A stretch of 64,000 bases of DNA from Ignavibacteriales bacterium (lineage in GTDB: Bacteria; Bacteroidota; Ignavibacteria; Ignavibacteriales; Ignavibacteriaceae): NCBI GenBank assembly GCA_015709675.1, contig CP054182.1, positions 3,823,448-3,887,447 of the forward strand. The letters are read 5' to 3'. The position numbers were made by a program, and so were the translations under genes. Shown in pieces: positions 58,979 through 63,916 of this stretch (the first letter of the stretch is position 1; every line of letters starts with the position of its first letter). The notes beneath the pieces are model-generated. The model saw only the letters and a list, made by a program, of their open reading frames with translations, made no database searches and was not told the origin of the DNA.

Positions 58979-59539
58979 TTGGGTGAAAAAGATTTACAGT
59001 TTCTGCATTTTACTTCCGAGGACTTAACTCCCCTTCTCGAGGCGGCGAAGTCTGGGGACGAGTCTGCCTTCAGCCGGCTTTCGGCTATTGTACAGACCAT
59101 CGCACGGGAGTATTTCCACGCAAAATTCCGAAGCGGAAAGCTCAGGAATATAGAGGATGCCGAGGATCTGACATCCAACGTCTGGCTTTCTTTCGCAAAG
59201 CAGTACCAGAAGATTGAAAATCCGGAATACTGGCTGAGACGGGTGCTTTTTTTAAGTTTTGTGAGCTTTTACAAGAAGGCGAAAAAATACCAGTACAGCG
59301 ATCCGGAAGAAGTTTTCAGAAAGGCAAAGAGTGAATATAATTTCGGGGAGGAAGCTGATATTGACCGGGTAACAGCCATTACGGCTGAGATGTCCGGTGA
59401 TAAACGGGAGATTCTTCGTATGCGGTTTCAGGAGGAGATGAAGTTCCAGGAGATAGCCGAGGCTTTGGGAAAAAGCGAGGACGCAGTTAAAAAGATGTTT
59501 TACCGCCTGATTGCAGAAATAAGGGAAAAACTGGAATGA
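58979..59539 (+). CDS. ECF RNA polymerase sigma factor
   Basis: A 186-residue ECF-type sigma factor. Region 2 spans residues ~20-90 (LLEAAKSGDESAFSRLSAIV, AEDLTSNVWLSFAKQ, PEYWLRRVLFLSFVSF). A linker with charged residues follows, and region 4 spans ~135-185 (REILRMRFQEEMKFQEIAEALGKSEDAVKKMFYRLIAEIREKL), the helix-turn-helix that reads the -35 box. The start is TTG at 58979: the frame is closed by a TGA just upstream (58967-58969), and no ATG lies before residue ~130. Followed by the membrane anti-sigma factor (37 bp) and the TPR-CHAT protein. Confidence 0.88.
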   Translation: MGEKDLQFLHFTSEDLTPLLEAAKSGDESAFSRLSAIVQTIAREYFHAKFRSGKLRNIEDAEDLTSNVWLSFAKQYQKIENPEYWLRRVLFLSFVSFYKKAKKYQYSDPEEVFRKAKSEYNFGEEADIDRVTAITAEMSGDKREILRMRFQEEMKFQEIAEALGKSEDAVKKMFYRLIAEIREKLE

Positions 59540-59576
59540 TGTCCCAAATCACACGAACAGATTACTATTTACCATT

Positions 59577-60512
59577 ATGAGCGAAACGAAAAAATCACCC
59601 GAAGATATTTTAGCAGAGCTGAGCAGCGAGGATGCAGAAAAACTTCTGAGCGCCCCGCCGGAAGATAATCCTGATCTGCAGGAATTTTCTGCGGTTTATC
59701 TGAGGGCACAGCAGGGATTAAGCAAGGGTAGCCATCCTGATGTAATGGAACTGGCGGAGTATATTGTTGCGGAATCTGCCGGAGAAGAATTCCGTGCAAG
59801 CGGTTTATTTAGCAAAATCCAAAAACACCTTGAAGTTTGCCCCTTTTGCAAAGCTGAATATCATTCCCTGCGGGAAGACTTGCCTCAGCCTGTAAAACAT
59901 GAAAAAATACCATCTGTTCCGGTCAGAAGAGGAAAAAAGAATAAACTTAGTTTCTCAAAGATTGTTTATTACCCTGTAAGAATTGCAGCGGTATTTCTGC
60001 TTGGCTGGCTTGCTGTTTATTCAGCATCAGAACTTTCGATGCCTGAAACAATCAGATACGGTTCCGCCGATATCACTCCGGATGGCGTAAGCAGAGCCCT
60101 TACCTCGGACACATTCTCTGAGACTCACACCCTTGTTTCAGAAGAGAGGTATGATGAAGCTATAAGCCTGCTGCTGAGACAGATTGAAGAAGACCCGGAC
60201 GGCGCATCAGCTTTTTATCTTCATTACACCGCAGGGAAGCTCTATCTCCTTTCCGCGCAGTCGGATATATTCGGGATGTTTACCAGCTACGATGATGAAA
60301 AAGTCAGGCTTGCCCAGAAAGAATTCCAGCTTGCCATTGAGAAAAACTATTCAGGCAAGTATGAGAACATCTCATACGATGCATCATTTTATCTCGCCAA
60401 GACGTATATCCTGCAGAACAATTTCGCCAAAGGAAAAGAACTGCTCGAATATGTTGCCGGAACCCGGGGGAGCAAATCTCGCGAAGCCGCTGAACTCTTA
60501 AGCGAACTCTGA
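59577..60512 (+). CDS. Membrane anti-sigma factor with zinc motif and C-terminal TPR region
   Basis: A 311-residue protein. The cytoplasmic N-terminus holds a ZAS-type zinc motif HLEVCPFC (His84, Cys88, Cys91, spacing H-x3-C-x2-C) that binds the sigma factor, with helical EEFRASGLFSKIQK just before it. One membrane helix lies at residues ~134-151 (VRIAAVFLLGWLAVYSA). The extracytoplasmic part has TPR-like helices (residues ~185-300: EERYDEAISLLLRQIEEDPDGASAFYLHYTAGKLYLLS, AQKEFQLAIEKNY, LAKTYILQNNFAKGKELLEYVAG). Position directly after the sigma gene supports the anti-sigma role. The TPR tail is unusual and may sense or bind the next gene product. Confidence 0.8.
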   Translation: MSETKKSPEDILAELSSEDAEKLLSAPPEDNPDLQEFSAVYLRAQQGLSKGSHPDVMELAEYIVAESAGEEFRASGLFSKIQKHLEVCPFCKAEYHSLREDLPQPVKHEKIPSVPVRRGKKNKLSFSKIVYYPVRIAAVFLLGWLAVYSASELSMPETIRYGSADITPDGVSRALTSDTFSETHTLVSEERYDEAISLLLRQIEEDPDGASAFYLHYTAGKLYLLSAQSDIFGMFTSYDDEKVRLAQKEFQLAIEKNYSGKYENISYDASFYLAKTYILQNNFAKGKELLEYVAGTRGSKSREAAELLSEL

Positions 60513-60514
60513 AC

Positions 60515-63500
60515 ATGAAACGTACGGGACTGCTCGCCGGTTTCATTCTCATTATTATCCTTACCTCAGGCCCTCATTATCAGATAGCGGACAAAGAGGA
60601 AACAGAGGAAAGCATTTCATCCTATGATGAAGTATTTGAGAAAACCGTTATCACGCTAAGACGAAGGAATACCGAGGAGGTGAGCCTGCTGAGCGCAAGG
60701 AGGTACAAAACGGGATACCAGTTTGCCGTCATCCGCACCGATTCACTTAAAAAAGCCGGAAACTATCAGGCTGTGTTTGACACACTCGATATATACTTTC
60801 CCGCTTCCCCCGCAAGCATTGTTTACTATGAAGAACTGATCAGCACCGGAGCCGGCTCGGGGAATCTGCTGCTTATTAAAAACAAGCTGGATGAAATCCG
60901 TGACCGGCCGCTTACGCCGTATGAAGAATATGCCCGGGGAATCATTATGAACCTGAGGGGGAACATAGATTCAGCAATTACCCTGTTCAGCGGCATCATC
61001 AGAAAACATCCTGAGCTTACAATTGTTTATCTCCGTTACGCAAACGCACTCAAGGACAAAGGAAGATATACGGAAGCCAGACAAGCGCTGAAAAAGTTTT
61101 TTACCGCGGATAATGATGACAGCTATCTTCATGCCGAGGCAGTCCTGCTGCAAGGAACCATCGCTTTTCTCGAGGGAGAGTATGACCAGGCAATGAAATA
61201 CTACCGGCAAGCGGAAAAGCTTTCCGATGAACTGTACGATATCCACACCGGATCGAGGGCACGGATCAATCAGGGACTAATATATGATATATACGGAGAG
61301 TATGATCCGGCCAGAGAGCTTTTCAACAAAGGCATTGAAGGCGCGAAGCGTCTGAAAGATCCGGAACTGCTGGCTTACGGATATTCTGAACTTGGTGTTT
61401 CCTATTCATTCACCTCAGACTACCCTGACGCGCTCGGCTACTATCAGGAAGCGATCACCATTTATCTGAAGACAGGAAACTCTCTCCGGCTTTCGTATTT
61501 ATATTCCAACAGAGGCAATTTACAAAACGCCATGGGAAACTATGCCGGAGCGCTGGCAAGTTACCGTGCGGGTATTGAAGCATCAGGGGATGCTCCGCGT
61601 CCGCTCATCCAAAACCTGACTGGCATGGCTGATGTGTATGTCAACGCGGGCAATTATACGCAGGCCATCAGGCATTACCATGAAGCTATGCAGCTCGCAA
61701 AAAAGATTAATGACAGGGATCTGCTCAGTTCAATCGAGACCGGCTCCGGATCATTCAAGCTGAACCTTGGTGCTTATGAGGCGGCGGAGGAGCATTTCAG
61801 GAGGGCGCTGCTATATACGGATGTAAAGAGCAATCCGCTCCAGGCAGGAGACATCATGGACAAACTGGCACTGTCACTGAAGGGACAGGGTAAGACAGAT
61901 TCAGCAATCATCCTGCTTCAGGAAGCAATCAGAACAGCAGAAAAATATCAGGATATCATTCTTCTGGCCTCAGCATCACAGCATCTTGCAGAGATATATC
62001 ACGGGGAGGGGGAAGCAGCGAAGGCACTTGGTATTCTGGCAGAGATCCGGAAATCAGTACCGGCGGAGACATATCCCCAGCAGCATGCGGAGGCGGTACT
62101 TACTGAAGCGGATATACGGCTTCAAACAGACAATGCTTCAGAGGCTCATAACCTGCTTTTCTCAACCGGCGTTGCAGAACTGACAGGAAACAATGCCTAT
62201 CTCGCGCTGTATTACCATTCCCTACACACCCGCGCGCTGATCACACTCGGAAACAGAGCAGAAGCAGAAAAAGAATTACAAAACGCAATTGCATTGTATG
62301 AAAGAACGGCACAATCTCTCATCGGCGGCAGCCATGATATTCCCGGGTTAACAAAACTTGCCGCCGGACTCTACAATTCACAAATAAAACTTCTGAATGA
62401 GAGGGGGGATTACAAGACTGCGTTCGGTTACTTAGAGCGAAAAAACGGAGGAAGCGCCTTCAGGAATGTGATATCTCTGACTCTGGCCCAAAGCATGGAT
62501 AATCCTGATCTCCTTGACAAACTTTACTCCCTTGCCTGGACTGCAGAGTCGCAGATTCACACACAGACGGAGAGGGATTCTGCACTGCAGCTTTATAACT
62601 CACTGCTTGAATTCTTATCATTGCAAAAACCAGTCAGGATGGAAATGCTGAGTGTTACAGAGATGCAGTCCGCCCTTGAGGAGGATGAGTATATCATCGC
62701 GCTGCATACAACTGAGGATTCGTCGTATATCTATGCACTTGGGCGGAATGAGTTTCTGACCAGGAAAATAAAAGGAGGAGAAAATTCTTTAAGAAGAATT
62801 AAACGGGGCATCTCCCCTAACTATGACCGGAGGCCGGGCTCACCTGATTTCCTCAACAGGGAACTCTTTGCCTTTGACGCAGTTGCCGCACGGTATCTTT
62901 ATAAACACCTGTTCGGTTTTCTTAATGACAAACTGGAAAAAGGGAGCAGGCTGATTATCCTTCCTGATAATATCTTCAGGGACTTCCCTTTTGAAACGCT
63001 TGTTGTAAACTCCGATGATGAAAATAACAGTTTTCATTATGAGGCATGCGAATTTGCCGGGGAGAGGTACCGCTTTGTCTATACTCCATCCTTCTCAGCA
63101 TACAAAGGACTTGAGAAGATCAATTACAGCAAAAACAAGACCTCACTGCTGGTGGGGAATCCCCTCGTGTCATCATCATCAAGAGGATTTGCCGAGAGGA
63201 GAAGCATACAGGGGAATACAGATGGCAGCAATACAAAGCAATTCCTCCCGCTGAAATACTCCGCTGAGGAGGTAAACTCCATTGACAATATGCTTGATTT
63301 CTCAACCGTACTAACCGGATCTTTTGCTACTGAATCACGGTTCAGAGAACTGGCAGCAGATGCTTCGCTGATTCATCTTTCAGCACATTCATCAGTCACA
63401 AAGAATCAGCCGGTGATTTATTTTTCCGGACTCTACGATGCTGAACATGACGGCATTCTTGAGCCGGGAGAGATTGCTTCGCTTGGATTAAAATCGGAAA

Positions 63501-63916
63501 TGGTTGTGCTAAGCAGCTGCAGTTCGGGGCTGGGAGATCCGGATGCGGAAGAGGGTGTCACCGGCATGAACCGCGCACTGATTGAGGGGGGAGCAAAGAG
63601 TGTTATCTCCACACTCTGGGAAATCAATGATGAATATACATCACGCTTTATGGAGATGTTTTATGATCATCTCAGCGTAGGGATCTCCAAATCGGAAGCA
63701 CTGCGCAGAACCCGGTCAGATTTTATCAGCCAGGTGAATTCTGATCCATACTACTGGGGAGCATTTATTCTCTACGGCGCAGACTCCCCTATGCATATCG
63801 AGAAGAAAAACTATATCTTTATTATGTTTCAATACTTATCTATCGGTTTCGCGGGAGCTTTTGTTTTACTTGTTTATATACGCAGGCTAACACGGCAATT
63901 AGTAATTAGGAGTTAG
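60515..63916 (+). CDS. Membrane-anchored TPR-CHAT (caspase-like) protein
   Basis: An 1133-residue protein, 2 bp after the anti-sigma gene. The N-terminus is a signal anchor (MKRTGLLAGFILIIILTSG); residues ~100-630 form TPR repeats (YGEYDPARELFNKGIEGAKRL, YPDALGYYQEAITIYLKTGN, YTQAIRHYHEAMQLAKKIND and more). A CHAT protease domain follows (~residues 790-1090) with the catalytic His958 in LSAHSS and Cys1002 in LSSCSSG. A final membrane helix (~1099-1122) ends in RRLTRQ. If the N-terminal segment spans with its positive end inside, TPR and CHAT are periplasmic. The final LVIRS and stop come from a heptamer array. Function inferred: a cysteine protease that acts with the upstream genes. Confidence 0.85.
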   Translation: MKRTGLLAGFILIIILTSGPHYQIADKEETEESISSYDEVFEKTVITLRRRNTEEVSLLSARRYKTGYQFAVIRTDSLKKAGNYQAVFDTLDIYFPASPASIVYYEELISTGAGSGNLLLIKNKLDEIRDRPLTPYEEYARGIIMNLRGNIDSAITLFSGIIRKHPELTIVYLRYANALKDKGRYTEARQALKKFFTADNDDSYLHAEAVLLQGTIAFLEGEYDQAMKYYRQAEKLSDELYDIHTGSRARINQGLIYDIYGEYDPARELFNKGIEGAKRLKDPELLAYGYSELGVSYSFTSDYPDALGYYQEAITIYLKTGNSLRLSYLYSNRGNLQNAMGNYAGALASYRAGIEASGDAPRPLIQNLTGMADVYVNAGNYTQAIRHYHEAMQLAKKINDRDLLSSIETGSGSFKLNLGAYEAAEEHFRRALLYTDVKSNPLQAGDIMDKLALSLKGQGKTDSAIILLQEAIRTAEKYQDIILLASASQHLAEIYHGEGEAAKALGILAEIRKSVPAETYPQQHAEAVLTEADIRLQTDNASEAHNLLFSTGVAELTGNNAYLALYYHSLHTRALITLGNRAEAEKELQNAIALYERTAQSLIGGSHDIPGLTKLAAGLYNSQIKLLNERGDYKTAFGYLERKNGGSAFRNVISLTLAQSMDNPDLLDKLYSLAWTAESQIHTQTERDSALQLYNSLLEFLSLQKPVRMEMLSVTEMQSALEEDEYIIALHTTEDSSYIYALGRNEFLTRKIKGGENSLRRIKRGISPNYDRRPGSPDFLNRELFAFDAVAARYLYKHLFGFLNDKLEKGSRLIILPDNIFRDFPFETLVVNSDDENNSFHYEACEFAGERYRFVYTPSFSAYKGLEKINYSKNKTSLLVGNPLVSSSSRGFAERRSIQGNTDGSNTKQFLPLKYSAEEVNSIDNMLDFSTVLTGSFATESRFRELAADASLIHLSAHSSVTKNQPVIYFSGLYDAEHDGILEPGEIASLGLKSEMVVLSSCSSGLGDPDAEEGVTGMNRALIEGGAKSVISTLWEINDEYTSRFMEMFYDHLSVGISKSEALRRTRSDFISQVNSDPYYWGAFILYGADSPMHIEKKNYIFIMFQYLSIGFAGAFVLLVYIRRLTRQLVIRS

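Follow-up and report, generated by a model that had tools for sequence, protein, structure and literature searches.

Why would a caspase-like peptidase be encoded directly behind a sigma factor and its putative anti-sigma factor? The question is raised by a stretch of 64,000 nucleotides from an Ignavibacteriales bacterium (contig CP054182.1, forward-strand positions 3,823,448 to 3,887,447), referred to here as the window. A preliminary description of this DNA proposed a three-gene unit, parallel to the sigma pathway of the Craspase CRISPR system. The three open reading frames (ORFs), their coordinates and the gaps of 37 bp and 2 bp between them are as described there. We also confirm what they encode: an extracytoplasmic function (ECF) sigma factor, an anti-sigma factor with a zinc motif, one membrane helix and a tail of tetratricopeptide repeats (TPR), and a TPR-CHAT protein with the pair His958 and Cys1002. 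These genes are conserved together, but three genes are not the whole unit. A divergent fourth gene, encoding a surface protein, and two promoter-like elements are part of it, and the earlier boundary is too narrow (Table 1). Gene content, conservation, the catalytic pair, the promoter motif and a set of correlated losses are seen directly in the sequence. On balance, we favor a four-gene envelope-signaling module in which the CHAT protein is predicted to be the dedicated site-1 protease of the anti-sigma factor.

The co-occurrence of the three families in other Ignavibacteria, which had been suggested as a check, proved to extend across the order. An anti-sigma profile matched 23 genomes among 79 relatives, and nearly always a CHAT gene followed on that strand at a distance of 2.5-4 kb. 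Across Ignavibacteriales, 37 of 164 genomes carry an anti-sigma orthologue. The order sigma, anti-sigma, CHAT is found in every locus with enough sequence, with three exceptions, and persists where anti-sigma identity is as low as about 25%. CHAT orthologues that lack an anti-sigma gene all lie at contig ends. When 84,980 species genomes were scanned, the named loci were those of Ignavibacteria, Ignavibacteriales and Melioribacteraceae. CHAT scores fall sharply outside Ignavibacteriales, and where CHAT relatives do occur, as in cyanobacteria, Acidobacteriota and Saprospiraceae among other groups, they are not arranged with sigma and anti-sigma genes. We considered a wider spread of the unit and rejected it; phylum-wide anti-sigma matches outside the order were partial and mostly covered the TPR end.

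The first gene product belongs to the ECF sigma-70 factors, which have regions 2 and 4 only. It scores 59.1 bits against NCBIfam TIGR02937 (cut-off 42.9). Region 4 is clear, with Pfam Sigma70_r4_2 above its cut-off, and the Pfam score for region 2 is under its own cut-off. Orthologues are 38-86% identical. Their genes almost never start with ATG. TTG is used in the window and in many relatives, and one subclade has no ATG, GTG or TTG at all; there, ATA or ATC remains, followed by a conserved D-[YF] (cases of unusual starts: window 58979; L034:4213, L035, L037, L150-L155). A built-in low translation of the sigma factor is possible.

The second product has a cytoplasmic domain with an H-x3-C-x2-C motif, followed by a membrane helix (residues 128-154), a disordered segment (155-176) and a TPR fold (178-310) in an AlphaFold2 (AF2) model, and is thus a zinc-type anti-sigma factor (ZAS). 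H84, C88 and C91 are each kept in 29 of the 30-31 CHAT-bearing loci; Pfam did not call zf-HC2 in the protein. Its TPR part matches the structure of the YbgF TPR (2xev). Operon position and architecture suggest that it inhibits its cognate sigma factor by binding to it. In one genome (G488; L160:2224-3201), an in-frame TAG interrupts the anti-sigma gene.

The third product is a CHAT (caspase HetF-associated with TPR) protein by its domain (Pfam PF12770, E=3.4e-50) and its His/Cys pair, and is a predicted peptidase. His958 and Cys1002 are invariant in all 23 orthologues that cover those positions, so the catalytic pair is intact, as first reported. Cys1002 aligns with Cys627 of Csx29. The chain consists of an N-terminal signal or anchor, a TPR superhelix, the CHAT domain, and a C-terminal membrane helix with a basic tail. 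The hydrophobic N-terminus is present in nearly all orthologues, and the C-terminal helix and basic tail in all that reach the C-terminus. By the positive-inside rule, these terminal segments would place the CHAT domain in the periplasm. The TPR parts of the CHAT protein and the anti-sigma factor are predicted to lie on the same side, and the models and terminal segments support the earlier suggestion that this is the periplasmic one. The AF2 model of the TPR-CHAT protein has a mean predicted local distance difference test (pLDDT) score of 80 and a predicted template modeling (pTM) score of 0.74. Foldseek found DdvA (8rot) as its best match (E=1.1e-16), then human separase, then Csx29 (1.6e-12), although the global superpositions are loose, with TM-scores below 0.5 and about 0.4 for DdvA. 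A phmmer search of the PDB with the CHAT domain also gave DdvA as the best match, at a weak E of 0.079.

The evidence that connects the CHAT protein with the anti-sigma factor comes from the linker. The anti-sigma residues 155-176 have pLDDT values below 50, and the sole invariant residue among them is an arginine at position 173, present in 32 of 32 CHAT-bearing loci. Its context is mostly T-R-G-R. Three loci, in three genera, have the anti-sigma factor and no CHAT gene. Here, position 173 is Gly (G056), Gln (G013) and Gln (G025). The replacement of Arg173 in all three supports the action of CHAT on that linker, and the three genera imply that the events are at least partly independent. Other invariant TPR residues are mostly retained in G056 and G025. 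The G013 locus still encodes a 114-aa CHAT remnant (L048:5945-6289), in which the hydrophobic N-terminus is joined to the C-terminal membrane helix. The end of this remnant shares 53% identity with the C-terminus encoded by the intact CHAT gene of a congener, so CHAT was lost there rather than originally absent. The G025 locus (L053:2933-4396) has a 487-aa ORF in which a sigma-like N-terminus is fused to an anti-sigma homologue that consists of membrane helix and TPR tail (60 bits with the sigma profile, 135 bits with the anti-sigma profile), with no CHAT gene next to it. From sequence evidence that includes this correlated loss, the CHAT protein probably acts on the anti-sigma factor. That it cuts at or near Arg173 is a more tentative prediction.

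The same loss pattern would fit docking as well as cutting. Docked on the linker and TPR tail, the TPR-CHAT protein could control the sigma factor as a co-sensor or co-inhibitor without cutting, with Arg173 as a docking residue and another protease performing the site-1 step. DdvA, the nearest fold, is itself an anti-sigma factor that carries TPR-CHAT, and the neighboring genes for two TPR proteins suggest a complex. However, a purely structural role does not require the invariant His/Cys pair, and Arg173 lies in a predicted disordered linker, not in a folded domain. We consider docking without cutting unlikely, but the most serious of the alternatives.

The fourth gene encodes a protein with a signal peptide, an N-terminal beta-type region, a CarboxypepD_reg domain and a C-terminal sorting tail of the type IX secretion system (T9SS). 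Full-length orthologues adjoin the unit in nearly all loci. In family f1 the gene is divergent from the sigma gene; in several f2 genomes it lies directly downstream of CHAT on the same strand. It was lost together with CHAT in the CHAT-less loci; in the G013 and G056 genomes, we found no full-length orthologue, only C-terminal tails or partial matches. A second T9SS-tail family, with a VTGTAIVD...LNFGPYWYEP domain that has no Pfam name, is associated with the module in f2 (L042:2305, L043:2046, L161:8980-11000, L162).

A bipartite element, TGTCMC-N17-HACTAW, faces the surface gene in 22 of 22 divergent loci scanned, and its spacer is always 17 nt (the divergent locus L150 was left out, as the scanned stretch was too short to count). 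In loci with a relocated surface gene, the element precedes another T9SS-tail gene (L043, L161, L162). The element recurs in the gap between the sigma and anti-sigma genes, at zero or one mismatch in 29 of 33 loci; in two more it overlaps a mis-called anti-sigma start, once with a 16-nt spacer. Shuffled gaps gave such a match in 0.15% of cases. The gap element is present in all scanned CHAT-bearing loci and absent from both scanned CHAT-less loci, G056 and G013, and no such element was seen before the sigma gene itself. We also counted exact sites in whole genomes. There are 64 in 15 module-bearing genomes (23 in the locus and 41 elsewhere) versus 7 in 15 module-lacking relatives, and the reversed pattern, used as a control, gave 28 versus 31. 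The difference of 41 versus 7 has a binomial P of 6e-7, a value to be read with the shared ancestry of the relatives in mind and with the fact that four module-lacking genomes also have no control matches. The enrichment outside the locus occurs only in module-bearing genomes, which ties the element to the sigma factor of the module. We conclude that the element is very probably the promoter recognized by this sigma factor. A search of the window's own genome with one mismatch allowed showed no enrichment (17 versus 40 control matches), and exact sites alone were therefore used.

The sites outside the locus provide a list of predicted targets. Genes for DUF2231 membrane proteins in four genera have an exact TGTCAC-N17-HACTAW 22-65 nt before the start (L224, L233, L264, L268, L270). 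Other recurrent targets are a 370-aa CxxCH protein in three genera, PepSY lipoproteins and T9SS-tail proteins; YceI and a cupredoxin each occur once. Together, these suggest an envelope or redox theme. Five exact sites (L209, L210, L232, L237, L241) lie inside a haem-motif coding region and were set aside as conserved coding sequence.

With both the surface gene and CHAT as predicted targets of one promoter element, the substrate of CHAT might be sought elsewhere. It could be the T9SS-tail surface protein or other periplasmic T9SS cargo, the sigma and anti-sigma factors merely co-regulating the pair. The two genes are adjacent on one strand in f2 and were lost together. This reading leaves unexplained why Arg173 is lost exactly where CHAT is lost, and why the surface gene changes place whereas CHAT always follows the anti-sigma gene directly; we regard it as quite unlikely. 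Less probable still is an ordinary operon, in which CHAT is a regulon member fixed by history that does not interact directly with the anti-sigma factor. Joint inheritance could cover everything, and the gap promoter by itself makes CHAT a predicted target. Against this stand the depth to which gene order is kept and the fact that, in separate genera, CHAT was lost along with the surface gene, the gap promoter and Arg173.

We thus return to CHAT as a protease of the anti-sigma factor, for which we propose the following scheme. The sigma factor would be held by the membrane-spanning zinc-type anti-sigma factor with its periplasmic TPR domain. The TPR-CHAT protein would be attached to the inner membrane and expose its caspase-like domain to the periplasm. 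A signal sensed through the TPR superhelix would cause CHAT to cut the anti-sigma linker at or around Arg173, and a general RseP-type site-2 protease would complete the release of the sigma factor; the M50 (RseP-type) family is present in the genome. The free sigma factor would read TGTCMC-N17-HACTAW, driving the surface protein from one promoter and, as feedback, the anti-sigma factor and CHAT from the promoter in the sigma/anti-sigma gap. A few further promoters would lead to extracytoplasmic redox and surface proteins encoded elsewhere. In its full form, this is a periplasmic CHAT site-1 protease that cuts in trans at a conserved juxtamembrane Arg motif, within a self-limiting switch that has its own promoter class and controls T9SS surface and extracytoplasmic redox proteins. 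Among CHAT-to-sigma pathways outside CRISPR, it would be the first with a separate protease and anti-sigma factor. We put this complete version forward as a possibility that falls somewhat short of even.

Several observations weigh against the proposal. The linker in the window itself reads S-R-A-L, not T-R-G-R. Only three CHAT-less loci are available, of which G013 is decaying and G025 is a divergent fusion, and the loss of Arg173 could come partly from general relaxation. Two loci have lost the H-x3-C-x2-C motif. Since all 14 control genomes also have RseP-type proteases, finding the family here is weak support. Chance accounts for some of the sites outside the locus, several of which lie inside genes. 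In separase, Arg at P1 is read by D2151, with K670 as the Csx29 counterpart (PMC9729208). The window protein has Ser1043 at this position, and specificity for Arg at P1 is not readable from the pocket.

Table 1. Coordinates of the module and its parts in the window
Feature	Position	Strand	Basis
Surface protein, 522 aa	57349..58917	-	PF13620 7.4e-9 (CarboxypepD_reg), PF18962 7.8e-8 (T9SS tail); adjacent orthologues
Promoter-like element 1, TGTCAC-N17-TACTAA	58943..58971	-	25 nt before surface-protein ATG
ECF-type sigma factor, 186 aa, TTG start	58979..59539	+	TIGR02937 4e-16; Sigma70_r4_2 2.9e-9
Promoter-like element 2, TGTCCC-N17-TACTAT	59540..59568	+	Sigma/anti-sigma gap, ~9 nt before anti-sigma ATG
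Predicted membrane anti-sigma factor, 311 aa	59577..60512	+	Zinc motif; helix; AF2 model m91b8ffcae48a
H84-x3-C88-x2-C91 zinc motif	59826..59849	+	Conservation in CHAT-bearing loci
Disordered juxtamembrane linker, residues 155-176	60039..60104	+	pLDDT <50; Arg173 = 60093-60095
TPR-CHAT protein, 1133 aa	60515..63916	+	Pfam; AF2 model m388f24256ccb; Foldseek
CHAT domain, residues 792-1089	62888..63781	+	PF12770; His958 = 63386-63388, Cys1002 = 63518-63520

The neighbors of the locus are a T9SS-tail gene and sugar-nucleotide genes. The same genome has a second CHAT locus (L005:4458-14446), which encodes CHAT proteins of 820 and 1843 aa without a sigma factor. Each is followed by a paralogous 270-aa secreted protein (with the stretch VKVENYTNYTIYVY...). 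CHAT proteins of similar size also occur close together in G003, G009 and G034. In G002 (L033:5696-9155), the CHAT gene is split near residue 1040 into two overlapping frames, by a frameshift or a sequencing error.

Three known systems share parts of this arrangement. In Escherichia coli DegS/RseA/sigmaE, a membrane anti-sigma factor is cut in the periplasm and then in the membrane by RseP, as proposed here. DegS, however, is a PDZ serine protease, whereas the sigma operon in the window encodes its own candidate, a caspase-like cysteine peptidase that carries a TPR superhelix. PorXY-SigP-PorA of Porphyromonas gingivalis links an ECF sigma factor with a T9SS C-terminal-domain protein, as in the window (PMC7712824); SigP acts with a two-component system, and no CHAT protease or zinc membrane anti-sigma factor is described for it. 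In Craspase (type III-E gRAMP/Cas7-11 with Csx29), Csx29 cleaves Csx30 and so relieves CASP-sigma (PMC10028731). Craspase and the window have in common a TPR-CHAT protein with the His/Cys pair and a restrainer of an ECF-type sigma factor. Structural comparison nevertheless puts DdvA nearest, and the choice of Craspase as the parallel needs correcting. Csx29 works within a CRISPR effector as a subunit activated by RNA, whereas the locus has no CRISPR genes and no sign of a target RNA. The CHAT protein in the window has a predicted signal and a membrane helix, and the zinc-type membrane anti-sigma factor is unlike Csx30. With no CRISPR genes in the locus, a different restrainer and a predicted periplasmic CHAT domain, we rejected membership in Craspase. 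No PADLOC Craspase model matched, in a search that did not extend to Cas7-11 genome-wide, and a PDB sequence search with the anti-sigma factor did not match Csx30 at E<=1, where no dedicated Csx30 profile was run. The earlier statement that CRISPR genes are absent is correct for the locus, at 3.88 Mb; the genome nonetheless has a single Cas1 match, at 0.29 Mb.

The closest likeness is to DdvA-DdvS of Myxococcus xanthus (8rot, 8rw5), which also combines an ECF sigma factor, a transmembrane anti-sigma factor and TPR-CHAT. DdvS/DdvA controls a CBASS (cyclic-oligonucleotide-based antiphage signaling system)/CRISPR defence island in Myxococcus (PMC12288465). The predicted targets in the window are surface and redox proteins instead. 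DdvA is one chain that runs from anti-sigma domain through the membrane to a periplasmic TPR-CHAT; its active site has reportedly been described as incomplete, and autoproteolysis is said to have been proposed. The window has two genes in place of this chain, an anti-sigma factor with a TPR tail of its own, an intact catalytic pair and a T9SS surface protein in the unit. The separate TPR-CHAT protein has the separase/Craspase-type fold, with a predicted periplasmic location. The unit is best described as a split form of the DdvA-like arrangement, with four genes, a promoter class of its own and both catalytic residues intact. If the proposal is right, CHAT peptidases are envelope-signal proteases for sigma factors beyond CRISPR, and Craspase and DdvA are two instances of something more general. 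For bacteria with almost no known regulatory circuits, the comparison yields a motif for the promoter, a region in which the cut may fall and a list of candidate targets.

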